DNA of 64,000 nucleotides from Sulfuricurvum sp. Its GTDB lineage: Bacteria > Campylobacterota > Campylobacteria > Campylobacterales > Sulfurimonadaceae. Positions within the stretch are counted from its first letter, which is position 1; each line of letters begins with the position of its first letter. Both the position numbers and the translations under genes were made by a program. Positions 26,763-51,658 of this stretch are shown piece after piece. The notes under the pieces are model-generated. The model was not told where the DNA came from. It did not search any database and saw only the letters and a list, made by a program, of their open reading frames with translations. The stretch spans positions 310,001 to 374,000 of the forward strand of contig NZ_JAQTUH010000001.1 in the NCBI RefSeq assembly GCF_028710345.1, written 5' to 3'.

Positions 26763-27302
26763 CTATTCATACGGTTCAGAGAGTTTAATGAAACTGTATT
26801 CAAAGGTAAATGAGGCTTGTTTGAGAGCAGAGATATTGAGATAAGGTTTGACATTTTTTCTTATGTACAGAGAGATGAGTGCACCATTTTTTAGCAATGT
26901 CGGATCAAAACAAAAGGTTACTATTTTGTTTTCATAGGAATTTTGGATTAATGCTTCGAGCAGAGTGTTATCCGGTGGTATCATAAGAATGATACCGTGA
27001 ATATTTTTCATAGTTAAGGCCTCTTTTGCCGATACGATTGAGAGGTGAATAGGGTGATCGTTAATCCCATCTGGATAGTGATTTTGAACCATACTGGAAA
27101 AATGTCGAGCAGTTTCTTGATTGGCTGGAGAGGTGACAATGGCAAGATTGATAGAGGATTGTATTCGCTCTTTTGTACCTTTTTCCATGAATAGAATTTT
27201 TGGGAAAAGCTTTGAGCTAATTTGGAGTAACGGTGTATCGTATGACTCTCCCAAAAGGGTCAATGGAATCACCAAGAAGAAAAAGTAAATTAAGTACTTC
27301 AT
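26763..27302 (-). CDS. Periplasmic YfiR-like (DUF4154-like) protein
   Basis: A 179-residue exported protein: MKYLIYFFFLVIPLTLLGES is a clear signal peptide. The core (INLAIVTSPANQETARHF, HGIILMIPPDN) has the fold pattern of periplasmic YfiR-like proteins, and the C-terminal pattern NGALISLYIRKNVKPYLNIS matches the DUF4154 ending, where a conserved GxI...N.AAL..AG occurs. The usual Y-x-KAA-x-LYNF opening is absent, so it is divergent. It overlaps the histidine kinase gene by 4 bp and probably binds the kinase's periplasmic domain. An ABC-type solute-binding fold is the alternative. Confidence 0.5.
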   Translation of the reverse strand: MKYLIYFFFLVIPLTLLGESYDTPLLQISSKLFPKILFMEKGTKERIQSSINLAIVTSPANQETARHFSSMVQNHYPDGINDHPIHLSIVSAKEALTMKNIHGIILMIPPDNTLLEALIQNSYENKIVTFCFDPTLLKNGALISLYIRKNVKPYLNISALKQASFTFEYSFIKLSEPYE

Positions 27303-28726
27303 GAACGATCCAAGGAGAGGCTGATAGTAAAAATTGCCCCTTGAACATTATTGCTAACACTGATGTTTCCCTCAAAATGTTGTTCAATGATTACTTTGGA
27401 CATATACAATCCAATACCGGTTCCCTGTTTTTGAAATTTCGTTGTAAAGTAGGGCTCAAAAATCCGTTTGGAAATATCAGACGGAACACCTCCCCCTGTA
27501 TCAGAGATATCGATGATGAGACGATTTGCTTCACACCGAAGCACAACATCGATTCTTCCTCCGTTTTGGTTGGAATTTGCAACAATAGCGTCTTTGGCAT
27601 TGTTGATAATGTTTAAAATAACTTGCTTGAATTCATTTACAACTCCATAAATTTCTGCACTGCATTCGTTATGTATGGCATAGGTAATTTTGGCATAGTG
27701 GAGTTGTTCACTTAAAAGGTGAAAAATATCGTTAATCGGTTGAGTTGGTTTGAACGTAATTTTCTCTTTATTGAGATTGAAAAAATTTCTAAAATCATCA
27801 ATCGTGTTAGACATAAAGGTGAGATTTGTCGTGATAATATCGCTATTATTTTGAATCTCTGAGTCATTAAGGATACCAAGTTGCCGCTTCATCTCCATAT
27901 TACTCATTGCTAAACCGATAACGTTGAGAGGTTGTCGCCATTGATGGGCAATACTCTCAATCATCTCGCCCATTGCCGCAAGTCTTGATTGATGAATGAG
28001 TAATTGTTCTTTTTGGCGACGTTTTTCCATCTCCGTTTCAATACGCTGTTCAAGCTTTGAATTAATCTCTTCCATTTGGTCTTTATAATTGTCAATAGTC
28101 CCAAGCATTTTATACGTTGATGAAATGATTGTACGGATCTCTTTATTGTTATTGTCGCATTGAAAAGGTTTCGTTGGCTGATCAACAATGTATTCACCCA
28201 TCCAATCGGAAATTTCACTTAAAACAAAAAACTGCTTTCTAAAATAGAGGAATGTAAAGGAAAAAATCAATAACGCAAAAAGTGATATAAGTACCAGTTG
28301 ATCAAAAAGTTTATTTTGTAACTCTTGAGCATGCGTATTGGAGTAGCTGATATAGAGTGTGGCTTGTAACTCTCCTGTAATGGGATCTTTAAGTAGTTCT
28401 GAGAGGGTGATAGAGCCTTTGATTTTTGAATGGGGGGCATATTGTTCAAACAGTGTTTTTTTATGGGTATCCATCAAAGAAATACGAGTGATACTGGGGT
28501 TTTGAAAAAAAGTATGCATAGTTTCATTGAGGAGATTTTGTTGATCAAAACTCAGATAGGTAGAGATAATCGGTTTAAGTGTGTTGGTTACCAATCTAAT
28601 TTTAGAACGCTCTTCTTCGTTGAGTACGGCAGAATTATGTGTATGGATAAAGATAAACATAGGAGCGGTGACTGCAATGTATAGGAGCCAAAAGAAAATA
28701 GCAAACTTAGCAATCAAAGAGTGCAT
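27299..28726 (-). CDS. Membrane sensor histidine kinase with CHASE8-like periplasmic domain
   Basis: About 475 residues from MHSLIAKFAIFF (ATG 28726); the longer frame to 28882 would run through the divergent promoter. Two membrane helices (about 9-30 and 155-175) flank a periplasmic domain with a layout like the CHASE8 domain of YfiN. Then a HAMP-like linker and coiled coil, the phosphorylated His (about residue 262) in IAHQWRQPLN, the N box NIINNAKDAI, and G boxes DTGGGVP and GTGIGLYMSK. No response regulator gene adjoins it. It is co-transcribed with the YfiR-like gene and divergent from a TonB-dependent receptor. Confidence 0.88.
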   Translation of the reverse strand: MHSLIAKFAIFFWLLYIAVTAPMFIFIHTHNSAVLNEEERSKIRLVTNTLKPIISTYLSFDQQNLLNETMHTFFQNPSITRISLMDTHKKTLFEQYAPHSKIKGSITLSELLKDPITGELQATLYISYSNTHAQELQNKLFDQLVLISLFALLIFSFTFLYFRKQFFVLSEISDWMGEYIVDQPTKPFQCDNNNKEIRTIISSTYKMLGTIDNYKDQMEEINSKLEQRIETEMEKRRQKEQLLIHQSRLAAMGEMIESIAHQWRQPLNVIGLAMSNMEMKRQLGILNDSEIQNNSDIITTNLTFMSNTIDDFRNFFNLNKEKITFKPTQPINDIFHLLSEQLHYAKITYAIHNECSAEIYGVVNEFKQVILNIINNAKDAIVANSNQNGGRIDVVLRCEANRLIIDISDTGGGVPSDISKRIFEPYFTTKFQKQGTGIGLYMSKVIIEQHFEGNISVSNNVQGAIFTISLSLDRS

Positions 28727-28796
28727 TATTAAAATCCAATACCAATTAACATTAAATGATGATATATAAGTTATTGTTAATATTTCTTTAAATTTT

Positions 28797-28805
28797 TGGT
28801 ACAAT
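28797..28805 (+). promoter_or_regulatory. Probable extended -10 promoter of the first TonB-receptor gene
   Basis: TGG-TACAAT in the divergent gap 28727-28834 gives an extended -10 box about 30 bp before ATG 28835. The same TTTTTGGTA-n-AAT string occurs before the second TonB-receptor gene (47031). The -35 candidate TTGTTA (28774-28779) is spaced 20 bp, which is long. Confidence 0.4.
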
Positions 28806-28834
28806 TTAACACCATAATAATAATGGAGACTATC

Positions 28835-30892
28835 ATGCAAGGTATTTGGAAAAGTCTGATTGCGTTTTTGGTGCTTACACATGAAGTAGCGGCGGATGAG
28901 AGTGATCTTACCTCTTTATTAGACGAAGTTACCGCTATTGCAACAAAAAGCAAATTAAATATTGACTATCAACCCTCTGTAGTCTCTGTTCTTCATGCAG
29001 ATAAGCTTAAAAAAACAGGTATTCGTAATCTGCATGAAGCGCTAGCTCTTTTACCGGGAATTGAAACGTCTATGCTGCATACCGGATGGAAGCAGGTTAT
29101 CGTACGGGGGATTTATAATCCTGATACTTTCGTATTTGACAAATACAAACTCTATATCGATGGGGTAGATGTTGGTAGTGATCTCTACAGCACCAGCTAC
29201 TATTATCTTGATTTTCCGATAGAACTGATTGATCGTATTGAAGTGTTGCGCGGGTCAGCCTCAACAGTTTACGGTCCAGGAGCCTTTAGTGCGGCTATTA
29301 ATGTCATAACGATTAGTTCTCAGCCGGAGGAAAACGACAAAGTTTTTGGTTCAATCGGCACTTATGGCTATACTAAAGGGGGATTTGTACAACATCTCAA
29401 CAGTGGGGATTGGTCACTCGGAATTGATGGCTATCATCAACACAGCAATAAAACTTTAGAAGCAGGTCCAGAATTTAAAGCGAATAGTGAAACTGCTTAT
29501 ATGCGTTCGGATTATAATAGTTTGGAAAATTTTGAGGATTATTCTATCGGTATAACGGCGAAACATGATGATTGGACGTTGATTGCACGATACAAATCGG
29601 AAATTACGGATAACTTTTATGGGTTAAACGAAGAGCTCGAACCGGTTACTACCGGATATCAGCATAATAAAAGCGGTATCGTTGAATTGCAAAACAATTA
29701 TTCACTGGCTCGTGATGTAGATTTGGAATCAAAAATCGGGTTCAACTATTATGCATTTACTTTTGATTCTACACTGTATCAAAATTATAACAATAGTGGG
29801 CTAACTATACGGATGAACCCGACGTTTGAGCAGTTAAATACTAATGTTGAGATGAATCTTAGAGGAAAAAATATCGATGATAATGAATGGATGATTGGTC
29901 TTAATGCTCGAAAAATTAATACGATTAAAAATGTTTTTGGGACAACCTATAGAGATCAAAACGATGGCGGTCCTATCGTTATGGGGTCAATGGAGTATTT
30001 GGATGGTCAGTATGGCTTAATTTCGGGAGATAATGATCAGTGGGTAAAATCGCTCTATGCGCAAGAGATATATTCACTCAATGACGCTTGGGATATTTCG
30101 GCTAATCTACGATTGGACAGTTATGCACTCTTTGGTGATATGGTAAGTTATCGTGTGGGGAGTGTTTATCGATTCGATGATAATAATATTTTTAAAGGAG
30201 TTTTTGGACGTTCGTATCGTGCACCTTCATACGTAGAAGCTTTTCAGACATCTCAAAAAGGGTTTAAAACGGGGAATCCAAATGTAAAACCAGAATCGAT
30301 TGATACCTATGAACTAGCGTACACCTACAAAAATAAAGAGTTTATCTTTCGAACCAATGTTTTTTATTCGATTTTACATGATGTGATTGATAGTATTCAA
30401 AATGAACCTGAGGCGTTTATAGGTGATTATGCAAATCATCGACAGCGAAATGAAAAAGGGTTAGAGATGGAGCTAACCCGCTCTTTTAATAATGGTTCTG
30501 AACTGATGGGCAATTTTTCGTATGTTACAACAGAATATTTTTCGCCAGATTATAGTACTCCTATTGAATATCAAAGCCCAGAGATTTCAGAAGTGATGAT
30601 TAAAGGATATTACCTATATCCACTGAATGAGCAGTTTGGGCTTAATACGGCATGGTATTATAATGGTCCAAAACGTGGATATATACGTGAAAGTGGCAAT
30701 ACTCAGACCTACGGTTCGACAATGGTGGTAGATGAGACATTGTCGTATCATCTCGATGATTTGTCAATGATTACGGTAAGTGTGAAAAATCTTTTTAATG
30801 AAGCGGTTATTTATCCTTCATACAGTGCTAAACATGATGGTATACTCAGAGAAGGTCGAAATTGGTTAGTGACTTATGAAAAACAATTTTAA
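28835..30892 (+). CDS. TonB-dependent outer membrane receptor
   Basis: About 685 residues. An N-terminal signal segment (GIWKSLIAFLVLTHEVAA) is followed by the plug domain: SVVSVLHADKLKKTGIRNLHEALALLPGIE, then YIDGVDVG, and ELIDRIEVLRGSASTVYGPGA. The C-terminal beta-barrel has FRAPSYVEAF-type repeats (here GRSYRAPSYVEAF) and ends with an aromatic Phe. It would import an iron chelate or similar large ligand. Start ATG 28835 has GGAG 6 nt upstream; earlier in-frame ATGs at 28823 and a GTG-type extension are unlikely. The gene is divergent from the kinase/YfiR-like operon, suggesting a ligand-sensing module. Confidence 0.93.
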   Translation: MQGIWKSLIAFLVLTHEVAADESDLTSLLDEVTAIATKSKLNIDYQPSVVSVLHADKLKKTGIRNLHEALALLPGIETSMLHTGWKQVIVRGIYNPDTFVFDKYKLYIDGVDVGSDLYSTSYYYLDFPIELIDRIEVLRGSASTVYGPGAFSAAINVITISSQPEENDKVFGSIGTYGYTKGGFVQHLNSGDWSLGIDGYHQHSNKTLEAGPEFKANSETAYMRSDYNSLENFEDYSIGITAKHDDWTLIARYKSEITDNFYGLNEELEPVTTGYQHNKSGIVELQNNYSLARDVDLESKIGFNYYAFTFDSTLYQNYNNSGLTIRMNPTFEQLNTNVEMNLRGKNIDDNEWMIGLNARKINTIKNVFGTTYRDQNDGGPIVMGSMEYLDGQYGLISGDNDQWVKSLYAQEIYSLNDAWDISANLRLDSYALFGDMVSYRVGSVYRFDDNNIFKGVFGRSYRAPSYVEAFQTSQKGFKTGNPNVKPESIDTYELAYTYKNKEFIFRTNVFYSILHDVIDSIQNEPEAFIGDYANHRQRNEKGLEMELTRSFNNGSELMGNFSYVTTEYFSPDYSTPIEYQSPEISEVMIKGYYLYPLNEQFGLNTAWYYNGPKRGYIRESGNTQTYGSTMVVDETLSYHLDDLSMITVSVKNLFNEAVIYPSYSAKHDGILREGRNWLVTYEKQF

Positions 30893-42964: not shown

Positions 42965-43968
42965 AATCATTAACGCTAACTATGCCACTGGATATGCATG
43001 TACATCTTCGTGATGGAGATATGCTAAATATTGTTGCTCCGCTAACTTCGTACAGTTTTAGCGGTGCTTTGGTAATGCCTAATCTTGTCCCTCCGCTAAC
43101 GACACTTGAAGGGATAAAAGAGTATCGGCATCGTATTAAAGTGGCAATGGAAGCGGATGATTTTGAACCCTATATGACCCTTTTTTACCAAAACTACACC
43201 CGTGAGTTTTTGGAGAGTGTGCAGAACCATATCACCGCTATTAAGATTTACCCCAGTGGTGCTACCACAAACTCTGAGGGTGGTGTTGTTAGTTTTGACA
43301 TTGAGCCGATGCGTGAGACGCTTGAAGCGATGAGCGATTTGGGGATAATTCTTGCAGTACATGGTGAGACAAATGGGTTTGTAATGGATCGCGAAGCGGA
43401 ATTTATGAGTGTGTATGAAAAACTTGCCATTAATTTTCCCCGTCTAAAAATTATTATGGAACATATCACCACGGCCGCAGCTGTTGAGATGCTTGATAAA
43501 TATGAGAACTTATATGCGACGATTACTGTTCATCATTTGATGATTACCCTTGACGATGTAGCGGGAGGGATGCTCCGCCCCCATCTGTTTTGCAAACCAA
43601 TTGCCAAACGTCCCGAAGATCGTAGCGCACTTTTAAAAGTGGCACTTGAAGCCCATCCGAAAGTGATGTTTGGCTCCGATTCCGCACCCCACCCAAAACA
43701 TACTAAAGAATCGTGTGGGTGTGGAGCAGGGGTATTTACCGCTCCGATTGCCTTGCAATTGCTTTGTGAAGTGTTTGATGCGCATAAAAAACTCGATAAT
43801 CTTCAAGCGTTTGTGAGTGATAATGCACAGAGAATCTATGGGATATGTCCCGATTTTAAAGAGGTAGTGCTTATAAAACACGATTTTGTGGTTCCTGAGA
43901 TGTATGGGGAGGTTGTACCGATGATGGCGGGAGAAACTTTAAAATGGTCAATCGAACGTGTTGAGTAA
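42961..43968 (+). CDS. pyrC: Dihydroorotase
   Basis: Closes the ring of carbamoyl-aspartate in pyrimidine synthesis. 335 residues of the class II (E. coli type) family: MHVHLRDGDML metal-binding start, AIKIYPSGATTNS with the carboxylated-lysine site, and FGSDSAPHP as the Asp site. ITTAAAVEML is near the histidine site. ATG 42961 overlaps a leader ORF (see 42920). The 3' end overlaps the response regulator GTG by 11 bp. Confidence 0.95.
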   Translation: MKSLTLTMPLDMHVHLRDGDMLNIVAPLTSYSFSGALVMPNLVPPLTTLEGIKEYRHRIKVAMEADDFEPYMTLFYQNYTREFLESVQNHITAIKIYPSGATTNSEGGVVSFDIEPMRETLEAMSDLGIILAVHGETNGFVMDREAEFMSVYEKLAINFPRLKIIMEHITTAAAVEMLDKYENLYATITVHHLMITLDDVAGGMLRPHLFCKPIAKRPEDRSALLKVALEAHPKVMFGSDSAPHPKHTKESCGCGAGVFTAPIALQLLCEVFDAHKKLDNLQAFVSDNAQRIYGICPDFKEVVLIKHDFVVPEMYGEVVPMMAGETLKWSIERVE

Positions 43969-44620
43969 AATACTTCTGCTCGAAGATGATCCTCTCTTCG
44001 GTGAATCGATTCAAGATTTTTTAGAGGAAGAGGGGTTTGAAGTAACTCTTTGCCCTAATGGACAAGAGGCTTTGAGCTCGACCTATGAGCATCAATACGA
44101 CCTGTATTTATTTGATATTAATGTACCATTGATAGATGGATTATCACTTTTGAGTGAATTACGCGGTTCACATGATCAAACCCCTGCTATCTTTCTCACT
44201 TCTCACCAAGAGCTTACTGTACTGACCGAAGCGTTTAAAAACGGTGCGGATGATTATTTAAAAAAACCGTTTGCAACGGATGAATTGCTAGTCCGTATCC
44301 ATGCTCTTTTACGTCGGAGTGGTGGTGGAGCGAAAGAGATTCAAAGTGTTGGTGATTTGAGTATCGACACCCAGCATAAAGTAGTTTTAGTGGAAGGAAA
44401 GGAGATACTTCTCTCACCGAAAGAGTATCAGTTAATGACACTTTTTATCCGAAATGCGGGTGAAGTGGTAACCAAAGAGATGATAACCAATGAACTATGG
44501 AGTGCTTCTGAACCTTCCAGTGAAGGAGCGATTCGTGTTTACATCACCAGACTGAAGCAAGAGATAGGTAATGAACGTATCCTGAATGTCAGAGGATTGG
44601 GGTATCGGCTTGTTCCGTAG
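43958..44620 (+). CDS. OmpR-family response regulator
   Basis: 220 residues: receiver with EDD start, phosphoacceptor Asp53 in LFDINVPLIDG, Thr in FLTSHQ and Lys in YLKKPF, then a winged-helix DNA-binding domain (KEYQLMTLFIRNAGEVVTKEMI; GAIRVYITRLKQ). GTG 43958 or the TTG three bases later may be the start; both lie within the pyrC end. Its sensor is the kinase gene overlapping its 3' end. Target genes are unknown; the exbBD/TonB receptor cluster downstream is a possibility. Confidence 0.93.
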   Translation: MLSKILLLEDDPLFGESIQDFLEEEGFEVTLCPNGQEALSSTYEHQYDLYLFDINVPLIDGLSLLSELRGSHDQTPAIFLTSHQELTVLTEAFKNGADDYLKKPFATDELLVRIHALLRRSGGGAKEIQSVGDLSIDTQHKVVLVEGKEILLSPKEYQLMTLFIRNAGEVVTKEMITNELWSASEPSSEGAIRVYITRLKQEIGNERILNVRGLGYRLVP

Positions 44621-45449
44621 TGTTGAAATTGCCCTGATTGCCCTTTTTGTGATGGGGGTTGCCGTTATTGTTGCGGTCATTTACACGCTCCATGAGATAG
44701 CTCATATCAATCAATGGGGGGTGATTGCGCTTGGGGTGTTAGTTGGCTCTATCGGATTGGGAAAAATCCTTTCGCATATCGCCATTGAACCGCTTAAAGA
44801 GCATTTTTATCATCTCGACCGTTTTTCAAAAGAGACACTTCATGAACTCAATCTTCCTATCAATACTATCACAGCAAATGTAGAGATGTTGCGTAAAACC
44901 CATATCGATGAGAAGTCTCAAAAACGGCTTGAGCGGATAGAATTGGCTGCGAAGATGTTAAAAGAACGGTATAATGAGCTCGATTATTTGATACAAAAAC
45001 AGATGGAACGTGAAGTTATAAAAAACTTTGATCTTAAAGAGCTAATCGAAGAGAGATTTGTCTTTTTGAATGGTTTATACCCGAGTGTAGAATGGGATAT
45101 CCGTTGTGAATCCTTTCTTGTAGATCTCGATCCTATCGGTATGGCTAAAGTAATCGATAATCTGGTGGATAACGGGGTAAAATATTCCCCTACAGAGCCA
45201 TATATCACGATTAAACTCTTTAACAATGCGATGAGTATTTGTGACCGAGGGTGCGGTATGGATGAGGTGACCCTCATGAAAATTTTTGATTCGTATTATC
45301 AAAGTGATAAAACAATGGCGGGATATGGAATCGGGCTGGGGCTGGTTAAACGCTATTGTGATCGTCATCGTATAGTGTTAAGTGTTCAATCGCAAGTGGG
45401 TGAGGGGACGTGTATTACCCTTGATTTACCACGCAAAAAAAATGGTTAA
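44586..45449 (+). CDS. Small membrane histidine kinase (intramembrane-sensing type)
   Basis: 287 residues. Two membrane helices (about 14-34 and 43-62) are separated by only about 8 residues, so no periplasmic sensor domain exists. The dimerisation helix holds His86 in LHELNLPIN; the ATP domain has NLVDNGVKYSP (N box), GCGMDEV and GYGIGLGLVK (G boxes). It overlaps the regulator gene by 35 bp, a large overlap; a TTG at 44610 would shorten it. It may sense membrane state or a partner protein, perhaps ExbB/D just downstream. Confidence 0.9.
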   Translation: MSEDWGIGLFRSVEIALIALFVMGVAVIVAVIYTLHEIAHINQWGVIALGVLVGSIGLGKILSHIAIEPLKEHFYHLDRFSKETLHELNLPINTITANVEMLRKTHIDEKSQKRLERIELAAKMLKERYNELDYLIQKQMEREVIKNFDLKELIEERFVFLNGLYPSVEWDIRCESFLVDLDPIGMAKVIDNLVDNGVKYSPTEPYITIKLFNNAMSICDRGCGMDEVTLMKIFDSYYQSDKTMAGYGIGLGLVKRYCDRHRIVLSVQSQVGEGTCITLDLPRKKNG

Positions 45450-45468
45450 AATCTAAAAAGGACAAAAA

Positions 45469-45912
45469 ATGGAAAACAGCAGCATGTTAGAGTTCGCCCA
45501 TATGGGAGTAGATTACGGAATCATCGGAATCCTTATTATCATGAGTATCACCTCATTATGGCTCTTTATCGAGAGAATGATGAGCTACGGCTCACTCCGA
45601 CTCGAAGAGTACAAAAATAAAGAAGAACTCGAACTCGATTTGGGTAATAACGTGAGCACTATCGCCACCATAGGATCAAACGCACCCTACGTTGGACTAC
45701 TAGGAACCGTACTGGGAATTATGATTACCTTCTATAGCCTAGGTGATATCGGAGCAGTCGATCCCAAAAAAATTATGACAGGATTGGCACTCGCCCTTAA
45801 AGCAACCGCAATGGGTCTCGTCGTCGCTATCCCCTCTATCGTGTTCTATAACATCCTGCTCCGTAAAATGGAGAGACTCCTCACTATGTGGGAAATTAAA
45901 AACAAAGGGTAA
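45469..45912 (+). CDS. exbB: ExbB-type proton channel subunit (MotA/TolQ family)
   Basis: 147 residues with three membrane helices. The NAPYVGLLGTVLGIMITF segment and GLALALKATAMGLVVAIPS are the MotA/TolQ/ExbB signature. With ExbD it uses the proton gradient to drive TonB for outer-membrane import. The shorter form is usual in this phylum. Codons here use more C- and A-ending triplets than neighbours. RBS AAAAGGAC lies upstream. No tonB gene is found in the window. Confidence 0.92.
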   Translation: MENSSMLEFAHMGVDYGIIGILIIMSITSLWLFIERMMSYGSLRLEEYKNKEELELDLGNNVSTIATIGSNAPYVGLLGTVLGIMITFYSLGDIGAVDPKKIMTGLALALKATAMGLVVAIPSIVFYNILLRKMERLLTMWEIKNKG

Positions 45913-45915
45913 CCC

Positions 45916-46302
45916 ATGAAAATGAAACGTATGGATACCATCAACGTTATCCCCTTTATCGACATTATGCTCGTACTGCTCGTCATGGTACTTACCACCG
46001 CGACCTTTATACGAACCGGACTTATCCCCGTTGATTTACCGGATGCCAAGGGGAGCGCAACCGAGCATAAACCATCAGAACTAAAACTCACCATCAAAAA
46101 AGATGGAACCCTCTGGGTTGATGAAACCACCACGGTGAGTTTAGAACAATTCGAACAACGGGTTGTTTCAGGGGGAAAAGAGATGACAGTAGTGCTTTAT
46201 AGCGATAAAGATGCGGCATTCCAAAACTTCGTCGGAGTGATGGATGTTCTCAAACGTCTGGGGCATGAACAGCTCTATATTGTGACCGATAAGCAAAAAT
46301 AA
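45916..46302 (+). CDS. exbD: ExbD-type biopolymer transport protein
   Basis: 128 residues: cytoplasmic MKRMDTINVIPFIDIMLVLLVMVL with the conserved Asp in the single helix (NVIPFIDIMLVLL), then a periplasmic domain starting TGLIPVDLPDA. It starts 3 bp after exbB and is followed directly by the 2OG oxygenase gene. Partner of ExbB; shares its codon bias. Confidence 0.93.
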   Translation: MKMKRMDTINVIPFIDIMLVLLVMVLTTATFIRTGLIPVDLPDAKGSATEHKPSELKLTIKKDGTLWVDETTTVSLEQFEQRVVSGGKEMTVVLYSDKDAAFQNFVGVMDVLKRLGHEQLYIVTDKQK

Positions 46303-46304
46303 CG

Positions 46305-46997
46305 ATGCATCAAATCAGTAATTACGTTTATGCTCAGGATGAACTTTTAGGTTGGGATATTCCGACTAAGCGTCTTCCTAATCCGTATAATGATTTTCCC
46401 TATATGGTATTAGAGGGGGTTCTTAGCCCCGCTGAGTGTCGCGCTATTACCGCTTGGGCATTGTCAGATAAAGAAGCGGTACGGGCAGAACTTCGTGGAC
46501 GTGCTCTTGATACTGCTATTCGTAAAACCGATATTCATACCCTTAGCCCTGAACATCGCCTCATGTATGAGCACCGTTTTGATGCGGTTCGTCGTGAGAT
46601 AGAAGAGTTTTTTGCTCTTTCGCTTAGTACACCAACCGATGTACAAGTATTAGGTTACGAGCAGGGGGGATTTTATCTCAAACACAGTGATGATGCGAGT
46701 GAACTTCGTAATCATGATGGCGATACAATTGGTTACAAAACAGTCGCTCCAGAGAGAGTCCTTACCACCGTCCTCTTTACCACCTCCTATACTCCCCATC
46801 CGACGGATACGGATCATTTTAGTGGTGGAGAGCTACTTTTTAATTATCTCTGTGATCAGTATGGCAATACGATAACTCTTCGCCCCGAAGCGGGAGATAT
46901 GGTAGTTTTTCTCAGTAACCCTTATTTTTCTCATGAAGTGCTTCCTGTCAAAGAGGGGTTTCGACTCTCTCTTGTTCAATGGCATAATGCACTATAA
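46305..46997 (+). CDS. 2-oxoglutarate/Fe(II)-dependent oxygenase (PiuC-like)
   Basis: 230 residues. The H-x-D pair is His127 and Asp129 in YLKHSDDAS, and the distal His and Arg lie in FSHEVLPVKEGFRLSL, near residues 208-220, as in prolyl-4-hydroxylase-like PiuC proteins. ERVLTTVLFTTSY forms a core strand; HFSGGELLFNY is the iron-site loop. Such proteins sit beside TonB receptors and exbBD in iron-uptake loci; their substrate is usually unknown. Starts 2 bp after exbD, so it is in one operon. Confidence 0.82.
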   Translation: MHQISNYVYAQDELLGWDIPTKRLPNPYNDFPYMVLEGVLSPAECRAITAWALSDKEAVRAELRGRALDTAIRKTDIHTLSPEHRLMYEHRFDAVRREIEEFFALSLSTPTDVQVLGYEQGGFYLKHSDDASELRNHDGDTIGYKTVAPERVLTTVLFTTSYTPHPTDTDHFSGGELLFNYLCDQYGNTITLRPEAGDMVVFLSNPYFSHEVLPVKEGFRLSLVQWHNAL

Positions 46998-47077: not shown

Positions 47078-49021
47078 ATGCTTATGAGTCAGTCACGCTT
47101 ACGATCCCTTTTTTTGATTTCTTTAGCTCTTACTACATTTTTGAGCGCAGATGACACTCCTAAAGATGTGACAACAATCCCTTTAGAAGAGCTTCTCCAA
47201 ACCGAATATATCCCCGCCAGTCACATCGCTAATCAAATCAGTAATGCCGCTTCAGCCGTATCGATTGTTACAGCGCAGGATATAAAAGATTACGGTTATC
47301 AAACATTAGGGGATATCTTGGGGAGTATGCGTGGATTGCATACCTTTCAAGATTATTCGTATACTTTTTTAGCAGGGCGTGGTTACAGTACCCCAAAAGA
47401 GTATGCAGGTCGAATCGCGGTACTGATTGATGGATACCGCGCTGATGATAGTATGTTTGGGCAAGCGTATCTCGGCAATGACGGAATACTGGATGTCTCG
47501 ATGATTGAGCGTGTCGAATATATCCCCGGTGGGAGTTCGGCCGGATACAGTAACGGGGCATTACTGGGTGTAATCAATATTATCACCAAAAAAGGCTCCG
47601 ACATCGATGGAACTCAGGTGGCACTTGGTTTTGGACGTTATGAAACTTTAAGCCGACGGGCTACATTTGGTAAACGGTTTGAAAATGGTGTTGATATCGT
47701 AACATCGTTTTCAGATTATGATAGTAACGGTCAAAGTTATACATATAATATAAATGGCATTGATACGCTTCAAAGTAATCAGCATGGTGAAAACTCAAAA
47801 AAACTTTTCGTTAAAGGTTCTTATGAATACTTTTCTCTTGTAGCTGCATACTCAAAGCGTAATGTCGATATTCCTTCTTATCCTTATGCCGGTGAATGGA
47901 ACGACCAAGCGATTCACAATCATGATGAGAACCGATTTATTCGATTGGCTGCCGATTTCGATATAACCAATTATTTAAAATTCTCTTCTTCTGTTTGGTA
48001 TGGTTCTTATCAATATGCATTAGAAGATTCTGTATCGATGAGCTCAATGGATTCTTTGATGGAGTTTAAAGATGATGCGAAATGGTATGGTGGTGATGTA
48101 AAATTGGTTGGAACATGGTTTGATGATCATGTTATTTCAATAGGAACAGAATACCGTCATGACTACCGATGGGATAACTCCCATGTTTTTACCGATGTTG
48201 TGGCAAATGATGTTTGGTGGTCATATCATGGGAGCTATCCGGCTAGAAAAACATACAGTGTTTATGGTTACGACGAGTGGAGATGGTCTCAAGTATGGGA
48301 ATTAAATTATGGGGCTCGGTATGAAAAAAGTGATAATGGATATCATGCGTTCACTCCGCAAGCGGCATTGATTTGGAAACCCCGCTTAAGTACAGAAGTT
48401 AAACTCTCTACCGGTATAACCCATCGACAAGCAACCCCTTCAGAGGATACAACTCTAACACCTGAGCGTGTACATACAAATGAACTTGTTATTGAAGAGA
48501 GATTGGATCATCAAAACAAAATTCTAACCTCTTTTTATCAGTATCGCCTTCGGGACCAAATCTCTAAAAAAGATAATAACGGGATTGATGCTCGTGGTGT
48601 GGAAGTGGAATTTGAGAAATATTGGGATAATCGTACCCGTCTGCGGACGAGTTACGCCTATCAAAATGTAAGCGAGTCGGATACCGGACTTGCATTAGTA
48701 AACGCACCACACCATATTGCCAAATTGAATTTTTCGGTACCATTTGTGGACGAAAAATTACGGATGGGGCTAGATATACAGTATTTGGGAACTCGTCCAC
48801 TTTATACGGATGCACGTCAAGAGTATGCCCCATCTCATACATTGACGAATCTAACTCTTCTTTCACATGAATGGGTTCCTAAGAGTGATCTTTCGCTAAA
48901 AGTGAGTAATCTATTTAATAAAACGTATGGGGATGTTGTTGATCCGCAAAGCAACGGAGATTTACTTTATCCTCAAAATGGGCGGGCATTTTGGATTCAA
49001 TGGGAGTATAACTTCCGATGA
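47078..49021 (+). CDS. TonB-dependent outer membrane receptor
   Basis: 647 residues with a signal peptide (SLFLISLALTTFLSA). Plug: SNAASAVSIVTAQDIKDYGY and LGDILGSMRGLHTF, LIDGYRADDSMFG, MIERVEYIPGGSSAGYSNGA. The barrel ends with FWIQWEYNFR, the C-terminal aromatic. An upstream GAGGGGG is 12 nt away, further than usual; ATG 47084 is a little further still. Its 3' end overlaps the YfiR gene by 4 bp. The first TonB receptor (28835-30892) has a comparable YfiR-like partner. Confidence 0.93.
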   Translation: MLMSQSRLRSLFLISLALTTFLSADDTPKDVTTIPLEELLQTEYIPASHIANQISNAASAVSIVTAQDIKDYGYQTLGDILGSMRGLHTFQDYSYTFLAGRGYSTPKEYAGRIAVLIDGYRADDSMFGQAYLGNDGILDVSMIERVEYIPGGSSAGYSNGALLGVINIITKKGSDIDGTQVALGFGRYETLSRRATFGKRFENGVDIVTSFSDYDSNGQSYTYNINGIDTLQSNQHGENSKKLFVKGSYEYFSLVAAYSKRNVDIPSYPYAGEWNDQAIHNHDENRFIRLAADFDITNYLKFSSSVWYGSYQYALEDSVSMSSMDSLMEFKDDAKWYGGDVKLVGTWFDDHVISIGTEYRHDYRWDNSHVFTDVVANDVWWSYHGSYPARKTYSVYGYDEWRWSQVWELNYGARYEKSDNGYHAFTPQAALIWKPRLSTEVKLSTGITHRQATPSEDTTLTPERVHTNELVIEERLDHQNKILTSFYQYRLRDQISKKDNNGIDARGVEVEFEKYWDNRTRLRTSYAYQNVSESDTGLALVNAPHHIAKLNFSVPFVDEKLRMGLDIQYLGTRPLYTDARQEYAPSHTLTNLTLLSHEWVPKSDLSLKVSNLFNKTYGDVVDPQSNGDLLYPQNGRAFWIQWEYNFR

Positions 49022-49524
49022 AACAGATAATCGTACTCTTTTTTGTAGCTGTCATGCTTTCAGCGGGACTTCGAGCGGATGCTCTTCCAGAATACACACT
49101 TAAAGCAGCGTATTTATATAATTTTGCCCTGTTGACCGATTGGCCGAAAGAGGAAGAATCAACTGGGTTTAACATGTGTTTTTATAAAGAAAACTTGGGG
49201 AGTGCTTCTGATGCTCTTCAAAATAAAATAGTTGGAAATAAAAAAGTTAAAGTGTTAAATGTGACGACTGCCGAAGAAGCTAAAGGGTGTCAAATGCTTT
49301 TTATCCCTGAAAGTGAGGGGCAAAACGGTGAAAAAATGATCCGTCAATTGGTCAAAACACCGGTTCTAATCGTTTCAGAAAATGCGAGTAGCAATGATGC
49401 TCATATTGTTATTATTCGAGAAGGACGAAAACTTGCTTTTGATATTAGTCTGAAAGCATTAAAATATAGTAATTTATTATTGAGCTCTCGATTATTGAAA
49501 TTGGCACGTAAGGTTGAACAGTGA
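49018..49524 (+). CDS. yfiR: Periplasmic YfiR family protein (DUF4154)
   Basis: 168 residues with a signal peptide (MKQIIVLFFVAVMLSAGLRA). The canonical opening EYTLKAAYLYNFALLTDWP is the DUF4154/YfiR signature, and LAFDISLKALKYSNLLLSSRLLKLA is the matching C-terminus. The domain includes two cysteines (MCFY; KGCQ). In Pseudomonas YfiR binds the periplasmic domain of the diguanylate cyclase YfiN and holds it inactive. Here it lies between a TonB receptor and a YfiN-like cyclase, all overlapping by 4 bp. Confidence 0.9.
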   Translation: MKQIIVLFFVAVMLSAGLRADALPEYTLKAAYLYNFALLTDWPKEEESTGFNMCFYKENLGSASDALQNKIVGNKKVKVLNVTTAEEAKGCQMLFIPESEGQNGEKMIRQLVKTPVLIVSENASSNDAHIVIIREGRKLAFDISLKALKYSNLLLSSRLLKLARKVEQ

Positions 49525-50753
49525 TTTTTCTCAATCGTTTAAATGAATGGCCTATCCAAAAAAAATTGATTTATTCACACATGTTAGGTATCTTTCTTGC
49601 TTTTTTACCCGTATTTTTAGTGATGGTTGTGTACGAATATTATGCTTTACGTAATGCTGTGCTACATGAAATAAGAGTTCAAGCGGAGATTATAGGGGAA
49701 AGTTCCGCAGCAGCAATGGCATTTAGTGATAAAGAATCGGCGTTTGAGACTCTTGCGTCATTAAATGGGTCAGAAGATATGATTGCCGCGTATTTAATTC
49801 TTCCTAATGGAGGATTATTTGAAAGTTTTTATTATTCTAAGAAAGCTAAGCCACCTTATTTGAAATCTTTAAATACTCCTGTCATGTACAATGAACATTT
49901 CTCTTTTTCTGAGGTTACGATTGTAAAGCCAATTTATTTGCGCACGGAGTATGTTGGATCATTGACACTTGTTAGTGGTTTAAATTCCTTTTATACGCGT
50001 TTATCGTTTTTTTGGATACTTATTTTATCGGTAGCACTATTTGGATTTGTACTTGCCCGTTACGTAGCTTCTAAGATCAGTCATACTATTACAGAACCAT
50101 TAATGCATTTGATTGCTGTAGCACAAAAAGTGACTTCTGTACAAGATTATAATGCCTCAATATCAATTGATTCCAAAGATGAGGTAGGGAAACTTTCAAA
50201 AGCTTTTGGGGAAATGATGTCTCAGATTCATAAGCGGGATCTTTCAATGCAGCAACTTGCGTATTATGATCGCGTGAGTGGAATTGCAAATCGTCATTAC
50301 TTTGAAGAACGGATTGTTCAGGCTGTAGGGAATGCTGAACGCTATGGAACAGTTTGTTATCTTTTGATGATCGATTTGGATGATTTTAAAATAGTAAACG
50401 ACAGTATGGGACATGATGTTGGTGATATGTTACTACGTCATGTCAGTGAAAGTATTATCCATACTCTTCGACAAAATGATTTTATTTTTCGTATCGGAGG
50501 AGATGAATTTGCTGTGATTATTGAGAGTACATCTAATCTTGAATCGATTGAACAAATCGCACAGAAAGTTATTTTTGCAGTATCAACTCCTGTAGCTTTG
50601 GAAGGACAATACGTCAAGGTAGGAGCCAGCATAGGTGTTAGCTGCTTTCCAAAACATGCGCATGATGTTCGTTCGTTAATCAGAACAGCTGATGAAGCAA
50701 TGTATGAAGCAAAAAATAATGGAAAAAATAATTTTCAGATATACCGAGGATAA
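49521..50753 (+). CDS. yfiN: YfiN-like membrane diguanylate cyclase (CHASE8-HAMP-GGDEF)
   Basis: 410 residues. Two membrane helices (about 19-38 and 155-175) flank a periplasmic CHASE8-like domain; then HAMP, and GGDEF domain with the active loop RIGGDEFAVI (about residue 328). The inhibitory I-site RxxD (RQND) is five residues before GGDEF, so product feedback is expected. Makes c-di-GMP. GTG start overlaps yfiR (GTGA). With the YfiR it likely forms a ligand-controlled switch; TonB-receptor linkage suggests the ligand is imported or sensed at the outer membrane. Confidence 0.9.
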   Translation: MIFLNRLNEWPIQKKLIYSHMLGIFLAFLPVFLVMVVYEYYALRNAVLHEIRVQAEIIGESSAAAMAFSDKESAFETLASLNGSEDMIAAYLILPNGGLFESFYYSKKAKPPYLKSLNTPVMYNEHFSFSEVTIVKPIYLRTEYVGSLTLVSGLNSFYTRLSFFWILILSVALFGFVLARYVASKISHTITEPLMHLIAVAQKVTSVQDYNASISIDSKDEVGKLSKAFGEMMSQIHKRDLSMQQLAYYDRVSGIANRHYFEERIVQAVGNAERYGTVCYLLMIDLDDFKIVNDSMGHDVGDMLLRHVSESIIHTLRQNDFIFRIGGDEFAVIIESTSNLESIEQIAQKVIFAVSTPVALEGQYVKVGASIGVSCFPKHAHDVRSLIRTADEAMYEAKNNGKNNFQIYRG

Positions 50754-51108
50754 AATCTAATAGTTGACTTCAATAATCAAATGAAGCAAACTTTTTTAAT
50801 CTACTTTCCCTCTTCAAAAGATACATAACAATATTACTTTGTACAGTACCATAATATTAACTACTTATTAGCTTCCATTTTTATGTAATAACTGCATTGA
50901 AATACTTCTAAAAAATAAAATTATTCATTTAATAAACATACGAAAAACCGTATATAATATATATTAAAATATATATTTAACTATATATAGTGTTTTTAAT
51001 AGTAATTATAAAGTATAAATAATCATATAAAATACATTAAAATATATATATTAAGTATTTAAATTCAGTTTAATACTTATTTAATTCAAAAAAACGTATA
51101 CTGCTCTG
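50754..51108. promoter_or_regulatory. 355-bp AT-rich gap upstream of the XRE operon
   Basis: No gene is seen. The right half is extremely A+T-rich, with ATTAAAATATATAT occurring at 50963-50976 and 51036-51049, and runs of TATATA between. TATACT at 51097-51102 is placed so that transcription would begin at the ATG of the XRE gene (51109), with no Shine-Dalgarno between. The left half contains TTGTACAGTACC and no obvious terminator. Confidence 0.4.
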
Positions 51109-51354
51109 ATGGAAACAAACGATCTTTTTAATCTCTTGCATAATGCTCTTGAGGCACAGCGTAACGGGAAAAAAATATCGCAAAAAGAGATGGCAGAGAC
51201 ATTGGGTATTTCCATGCGCACCTACCAAGACTGGCGGTTAGGTAATGCTAAACCTCAAGCAGCCAATGCGGTGCTAGAAATGCTAGGGATGTTAGAGGAT
51301 GAAGAGATAATTCGTGTGGTGCGACGTATTAATAAATTAAAAGGTGGCAAATGA
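51109..51354 (+). CDS. XRE-family HTH transcriptional regulator
   Basis: 81 residues with one helix-turn-helix of the XRE/Cro type: SQKEMAETLGISMRTYQDWRLG, then a short helical tail. The mean length suits a single-domain regulator. It is probably autoregulated through the repeats in the AT-rich gap. It overlaps the next small gene by 4 bp (ATGA). No RBS is present near ATG 51109; see the leaderless-transcript observation. The target is unknown. Confidence 0.8.
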   Translation: METNDLFNLLHNALEAQRNGKKISQKEMAETLGISMRTYQDWRLGNAKPQAANAVLEMLGMLEDEEIIRVVRRINKLKGGK

Positions 51355-51605
51355 GTTGTTTAAGCGAACGTGAACGTATAGCTTTAGATGATATCTTTTT
51401 ATCCATGTCGGTGAACCAATCACCGTTTGAGAGATGTAAAATGGCATGTAATAATTATGCGCCGCGTTTAAAAGAGGGGGCAAAAAGTGTTATGATATTG
51501 GTTCACCCTCAAAAATATTTAAAAAGTTATCAAAATGCCAAACTTTTTGTTCGACGAAAGCAAAAGAGGATAGGACGACGATTAGGCTTTTTTAGTCATA
51601 AATAA
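51351..51605 (+). CDS. Small basic hypothetical protein
   Basis: 84 residues, not recognised. The N-terminal half has a helix pattern (ERERIALDDIFLSM) and a Cys pair (CLSE, CKMAC); the C-terminal part is strongly basic (RRKQKRIGRRLGFF). Coupled to the XRE gene by ATGA overlap, so it may be its co-regulated partner, such as an antitoxin/toxin-like or nucleic acid-binding protein, but no family motif is visible. Confidence 0.55.
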   Translation: MSCLSERERIALDDIFLSMSVNQSPFERCKMACNNYAPRLKEGAKSVMILVHPQKYLKSYQNAKLFVRRKQKRIGRRLGFFSHK

Positions 51606-51658
51606 TTCTTTAATAGGCTAAATAGTCTATAATATCGCATCTTAACTCAGGGTGTGTT

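Follow-up and report, generated by a model that had tools for sequence, protein, structure and literature searches.

In the group of systems described as YfiBNR, TpbB, AwsXRO and HmsCDE in Pseudomonas, Escherichia and Yersinia, YfiR represses YfiN until YfiR is sequestered at the outer membrane. Here we analyze a related module at positions 47078-50753 of a 64,000-nucleotide stretch of Sulfuricurvum sp. DNA (the window), in which the gene for a TonB-dependent receptor (TBDR) is followed by yfiR-like and yfiN-like genes. Malone et al. 2012 (PMC3375315) described YfiR-YfiN as widespread and highly modular, with kinase, HPT and GGDEF-EAL outputs, and reported that yfiB is missing from most distant operons; TonB is not mentioned in their text. 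In the literature that we searched, whose coverage mostly leaves out subscription journals, we found no relevant paper combining YfiR or DUF4154 with TonB. NCBIfam holds models for a TOL_0244 TBDR (NF053590), a TOL_0243 YfiR-like protein (NF053591) and a "YfiR-like protein-associated" kinase (HK_near_YfiR_like, NF053592), so the trio has already been seen by curators. The preliminary description of this DNA had suggested a modular, possibly undescribed family of receptor-coupled sensors; a modular, receptor-linked family is indeed what we observe, but output modularity was published in 2012 and the NCBIfam models exist. We consider it probable that the 47078-50753 module signals across the membrane in the manner of Yfi systems, with a TBDR standing in place of the outer-membrane lipoprotein YfiB.

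Three overlapping genes for a receptor, YfiR and a predicted cyclase

The module consists of three genes on the forward strand. The first (47078..49021) encodes a TBDR of 647 aa with signal peptide, pre-plug segment, plug and barrel, the second (49018..49524) a YfiR-like periplasmic protein of 168 aa, and the third (49521..50753), which has a GTG start, a YfiN-like predicted diguanylate cyclase of 410 aa. The open reading frames (ORFs) are exactly those of the preliminary description, which had them overlapping by 4 bp each: the receptor stop and YfiR start share an ATGA (49018..49021, forward strand) and the YfiR stop and YfiN start a GTGA (49521..49524, forward strand), both read directly in the DNA. 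All Pfam domain calls for the module are above the curated cut-offs. The TBDR matches Plug at 50 bits and the TonB_dep_Rec barrel at 75 bits, carries a PLEELL motif within a pre-plug segment of about 30 residues after the signal peptide, and has the colicin I receptor Cir as its closest solved structure (E 2e-7).

The YfiR-like protein matches DUF4154 (YfiR/HmsC-like) at 117 bits and has a signal peptide at about residues 4-22 and two cysteines, Cys54 and Cys91, whose columns hold Cys in 105 and 93 of 134 aligned YfiR family members, respectively. The single sequence gave no match against Protein Data Bank (PDB) sequences, and a YfiR profile matched YfiR there at E 5e-4. An AlphaFold2 (AF2) model of the protein, with a predicted local distance difference test (pLDDT) of 87, has the Pseudomonas YfiR crystals 4yn9/4yn7 as its best matches (E 2e-8, template modelling (TM) scores 0.65-0.73), and the fold search thus confirmed the YfiR fold for the modelled protein.

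The YfiN-like protein matches CHASE8 (55 bits), HAMP (29 bits) and GGDEF (156 bits), arranged as a transmembrane helix at 19-37, a periplasmic CHASE8 domain at 43-151, a second transmembrane helix at 161-179 and HAMP at 186-237. The GGDEF motif at 326-330 is intact and accompanied by an RQND I-site, from which cyclase activity is predicted, and TpbB/YfiN is among the matches. The nearest named contigs carrying the module are also from Sulfuricurvum, with a YfiR identity of 60-61%, and the output is CHASE8-GGDEF in 6/6 of its closest relatives.

The window module shares with the YfiBNR group the YfiR fold, the CHASE8-HAMP-GGDEF effector, the tandem yfiR-yfiN order and conserved patch residues; it differs in having no OmpA-like lipoprotein YfiB, a TBDR being joined to the operon instead. 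Its YfiR reaches 36.9 against a cut-off of 85 with the NCBIfam model for the sequestration YfiR, and its cyclase 229 against 325 with that for DgcN. The NCBIfam trio has the same design of TBDR, YfiR-like protein and CHASE8 sensor; the window output, however, is GGDEF rather than kinase, and the window proteins all miss their cut-offs (66 vs 645, 85.5 vs 125 and 139 vs 194 bits). One surveyed Pseudomonadota receptor scores above the cut-off of the receptor model (691 vs 645 bits), and several surveyed YfiRs approach or pass the TOL_0243 model.

A TBDR reports a ligand to the cytoplasm in FecA-FecR-FecI, as proposed here, and the presence of a TBDR and a signalling protein in one operon would suit a transducer of that type. 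That system needs an STN domain, FecR and an extracytoplasmic function (ECF) sigma factor, however, and none of these is found at the window module: Pfam gives Plug and barrel alone in the receptor, without the STN signalling domain, only about 30 residues lie between signal peptide and plug, and no FecR or ECF sigma gene was recognised among the scanned neighbouring ORFs. We regard FecA-type signalling as highly improbable here.

Linkage of TBDR and YfiR genes across genomes

DUF4154 is present in 23/41 genomes of the window's genus and in 34/397 genomes sampled from Campylobacterota. A TBDR lies within 4 kb in 61/64 of the Campylobacterota DUF4154 loci having 4 kb on both sides, with ORFs and domains called by profiles grown from the window proteins. 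An unbiased draw of 200 Pseudomonadota genomes yielded 50 with DUF4154, from 49 of which we took 60 loci. TBDR plugs, counted per genome with Pfam, often number just 2-5 in these genomes, and a TBDR was found within 4 kb of 47/60 loci, compared to 1.3 expected under a null built from TBDR density only. With one locus per genome, 39/49 are linked vs 1.1 expected. Pfam plug matches occur independently at many of the same loci (e.g. G520:C27, G628:C139 and G492:C2). A set of named contigs, biased toward the window's YfiR, shows the linkage also in Betaproteobacteria, Acidobacteriota, Geobacteraceae and others, and it is found in two annotated plasmid records, from Sphingobium and Pseudoalteromonas. 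The two genes are on the same strand in 179/195 cases, a pooled count in which some loci fetched by different routes are counted twice; the TBDR comes first in 135/179, and the median gap is 6 bp.

The survey that the preliminary description had proposed, of yfiR genes beside TonB receptors and of their outputs, therefore finds linkage far from random in every group covered. Random linkage, which it had named as the result that would speak against a family, is not observed in Pseudomonadota, in Campylobacterota or in the window's own genome (4/4). Most YfiR genes are paired with a TBDR in this way, and the YfiBNR version is rare. A few loci hold a pair of YfiR genes that flank TBDRs or lie between them (L212/L139 in Nitrosomonas and L208 in Geomonas).

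The outer-membrane partner of YfiR

Using the E. coli yfiR-dgcN-yfiB locus as a reference, we found a YfiB-like OmpA gene adjoining YfiR in four loci only (L224, L259, L262 and L268), none of which has a nearby TBDR. There is no YfiB-like gene among 196 TBDR-linked entries, and neither the window module nor a single one of 81 Campylobacterota YfiR entries has an OmpA-like ORF beside it. YfiB and TBDR neighbours of YfiR are thus mutually exclusive in our survey. In two loci from Verrucomicrobia (L149 and L166), a Phenol_MetA_deg-type protein precedes the YfiR-kinase pair at the place where other phyla have the TBDR. What these loci share seems to be some outer-membrane protein, of a kind that depends on the lineage and is mostly a TBDR.

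These replacements bear on a second interpretation, in which the TBDR is only a transporter and YfiR a small substrate-binding protein that sets the cyclase when it holds the ligand. The structural matches that come next after YfiR are substrate-binding proteins (6k1x, 8wgl, 5z6v, 3lkv and 3lft), although these matches are weak, with TM scores of about 0.5 and E 5e-4 or worse. Systems responding to hydrocarbons also offer parallels. TOL_0244 is up sevenfold on C28 alkane and was related by the authors to OmpS, an alkane sensor of Alcanivorax (PMC6304351). Cycloclasticus P1 has consecutive genes for an outer-membrane receptor (pahS), a periplasmic substrate-binding protein (pahP) and a histidine kinase (pahK), each of which was hit by a transposon in mutants failing on polycyclic aromatic hydrocarbons (PAHs) (PMC8547461). 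This trio is a possible analogue of the TBDR-YfiR unit; there, as with OmpS of Alcanivorax dieselolei, the outer-membrane receptor is needed for the substrate response (PMC8547461, PMC6304351, PMC5174103). PahP, however, has 318 aa and is described as a substrate-binding protein, and no YfiR is reported for OmpS. The alkane and PAH ligands of these systems are not transferable to the Sulfuricurvum receptor. The mutant phenotypes and the alkane induction would be in keeping with such a substrate relay, but a YfiB or Phenol_MetA_deg barrel in place of the TBDR at some loci is easier to reconcile with an outer-membrane sensor than with a protein that only imports. We hold the relay to be possible, with roughly one chance in three; it is a sub-case of the receptor-coupled interpretation, and our confidence in the two overlaps.

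Receptor lineages, pre-plug segment and co-divergence

We built a tree of 90 receptors that included linked TBDRs, unlinked TBDRs from the same genome and from other genomes, and the E. coli receptors BtuB, CirA, FepA and Fiu. The linked label requires 9 changes on this tree, compared to 29.5 when shuffled, and 0/500 shuffles were as low. In a first tree, all linked TBDRs had appeared to form one clade (57/58); this split into several lineages after 20 more unlinked controls were added, and we therefore restrict the claim to a few dedicated lineages. Neither tree places any unlinked receptor of the window's genome within the set to which the two receptors of the window belong. The receptor of the 47078-50753 module is in a well-supported clade of 13 rows with Betaproteobacterial and Geobacteraceae receptors of TBDR-YfiR units.

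Linked receptors share a consensus between signal peptide and plug, DLTDLSLEELVQVEVTSASK, whose window version is PLEELLQTEYIPAS. This shared segment is a candidate YfiR docking site or modified TonB box, as judged from sequence. A pre-plug profile trained on one set exceeded 5 bits in 55/58 of the linked receptors held out from training and in 9/38 of the unlinked ones; it is weaker in Campylobacterota (33/72) and partly reflects the signal peptide and TonB-box region, and we therefore treat it as a lead only. The pre-plug consensus in the N-termini of YfiR-linked TBDRs (window 47078-47250) reads LSLEELVQVEVTSASK.

The pairwise distances of TBDRs and of YfiRs are correlated, with rho of 0.56 (n=134) overall and 0.65 in the window's genus (n=32), and those of YfiRs and sensor N-termini with rho of 0.78 overall and 0.79 within the genus; organism phylogeny contributes to the overall figures, and the single-genus figures are less affected. 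No permutation was as high in either comparison.

Lineage restriction also bears on the idea that the locus is a classical YfiBNR system with YfiB encoded elsewhere, and the TBDR a mere co-regulated passenger such as an iron-uptake gene. The YfiR fold, CHASE8 sensor and GGDEF domain do match those of YfiBNR, and c-di-GMP (cyclic di-GMP) and iron uptake are often co-regulated. Such a passenger would however not be expected to show a linkage conserved across phyla with many outputs, nor a mutual exclusion with YfiB-like neighbours, nor a confinement of linked TBDRs to few lineages, and there is no match to a Fur box anywhere in the 64-kb window. We consider a passenger unlikely.

Outputs and fusions

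The outputs adjoining YfiR in 173 non-redundant linked loci comprise 86 kinases, 54 GGDEF proteins and 33 unassigned. The receptor tree requires at least 12 changes of output type vs 43 when shuffled, and hence outputs were swapped repeatedly, but rarely. Pfam confirmed CHASE8 in kinases, hybrid kinases and GGDEF-EAL proteins. The phenylalanine of the YfiR-binding patch proposed by Malone et al. is F in 116/134 sequences, the correspondence being set by alignment with E. coli DgcN.

In some loci, YfiR and its output are a single protein. Seven Campylobacterota fusions join YfiR through a coil and one transmembrane helix to GGDEF (L047, L059, L060, L066, L069, L102 and L103), and in L086:5625-7535 YfiR is fused through a coil and a transmembrane helix to a SpoIIE-type phosphatase, an output for which we found no mention in connection with YfiR in the literature examined. 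All eight fusions directly adjoin a TBDR, and CHASE8 was not found in the two that were scanned with Pfam. AF2 predicts a single helix at 182-312 between YfiR and the transmembrane segment of a fusion, at low predicted TM score and moderate pLDDT. This helix of 131 residues would extend about 20 nm at 0.15 nm per residue, which is close to common figures for the width of the periplasm. The modelled fusion suggests, short of proof, that YfiR acts with its head close to the outer membrane, and that it may need neither free diffusion nor sequestration.

Other modules of the same genome

The window contains another module at 26763-30892, with a TBDR on the forward strand (28796..30892, Pfam) and, divergently on the reverse strand, a YfiR-like protein (26763..27302) and a histidine kinase output (27299..28882) that overlap by 4 bp. 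The module is real, although its YfiR is weak and below the Pfam cut-off (19.7 bits vs 24.9), and Pfam did not find CHASE8 in its kinase. Identity between the two window modules is 18% for the TBDR, 12% for YfiR and 11% for the sensor N-terminus, and at such values they are ancient relatives. A recent output swap between them is ruled out by the 11-18% identity, and no single module has locally changed its output. The preliminary description had held that receptor and YfiR were retained from one module to the other as the output changed; across the family, output does vary with the TBDR-YfiR pair kept, but this is not a local change.

The 3.0-Mb genome encodes 18 TBDRs, and all four of its YfiR-like genes (three found genome-wide and the weak one at 26763) adjoin a TBDR. 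Two further modules are outside the window, on contigs C4, where the layout is GGDEF-YfiR-kinase-TBDR (L032), and C16, where TBDR-YfiR is accompanied by a GGDEF protein on the opposite strand (L033). It is unusual to have two such modules within 64 kb. In a Sulfuricurvum relative (L042, G002 contig 32), a pair of adjoining TBDR-YfiR-cyclase modules, both complete, face each other. The strong differences in layout and sequence between the two window modules could be taken to mean that they came to lie together by chance and do not belong to a family, a notion that the genome-wide and phylum-wide linkage statistics refute and to which we give virtually no credence.

Surroundings of the module

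Upstream, at 43958-46997 on the forward strand, genes for a response regulator, a histidine kinase, ExbB (a TonB-system energizer, 45469..45912), ExbD (45916..46302) and a weakly matched PKHD/YbiX-like 2-oxoglutarate-Fe(II) oxygenase (46305..46997, 80 bp 5′ of the receptor gene) run co-directionally up to the receptor. We rejected ExbB-ExbD-oxygenase as a conserved context, as it was not found beside orthologous modules. After the module, about 900 bp (50754-51658) are mostly very AT-rich, with a small helix-turn-helix-like ORF near 51110, and are followed by the next gene.

Proposed mechanism and implications

We infer a physical coupling of receptor and YfiR that answers to an extracellular ligand. 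The ligand would be bound by the receptor, and receptor loading or its TonB-driven state would alter how the periplasmic face, made of the plug and the conserved N-terminal segment, engages YfiR; the effect may be direct or may pass through imported ligand. YfiR would then grip the CHASE8 domain of the YfiN-like protein in the inner membrane more or less tightly, a change that HAMP would relay to GGDEF, moving c-di-GMP up or down with feedback through the I-site. In other members of the family, histidine kinases or GGDEF-EAL proteins would be driven by this receptor-YfiR-CHASE8 front end.

Several points weigh against a receptor-coupled Yfi unit. The window receptor is without the STN signalling domain, about one fifth of Pseudomonadota YfiR loci are without a nearby TBDR, the unlinked controls L302 and L307 are placed inside a linked lineage, and a shared regulon or joint transfer could also yield co-divergence and linkage. 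The survey as a whole relied on simple ORF calls, on incomplete genomes and on profiles that had been seeded with proteins of the window itself.

More broadly, TBDR-YfiR-CHASE8 may be a general class of outer-membrane-to-cytoplasm ligand signalling with dedicated sensor TBDRs, from which the YfiBNR branch swapped its receptor for YfiB; we see the arguments for this as evenly balanced. The class would take its place next to the FecA-type and SusCD-type systems and span at least Campylobacterota, Pseudomonadota, Acidobacteriota and Geobacteraceae, its TBDRs being sensors rather than nutrient importers. The survey offers a testable input, the TBDR, for the YfiR-YfiN operons without yfiB noted by Malone et al., and the model system YfiBNR is atypical of YfiR genes. 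If the proposal is true, many receptors now called "siderophore/vitamin transporter" would become candidate environmental sensors, and extracellular ligands would be tied to biofilm and motility decisions through c-di-GMP, or to phosphorelays, in widespread environmental bacteria.

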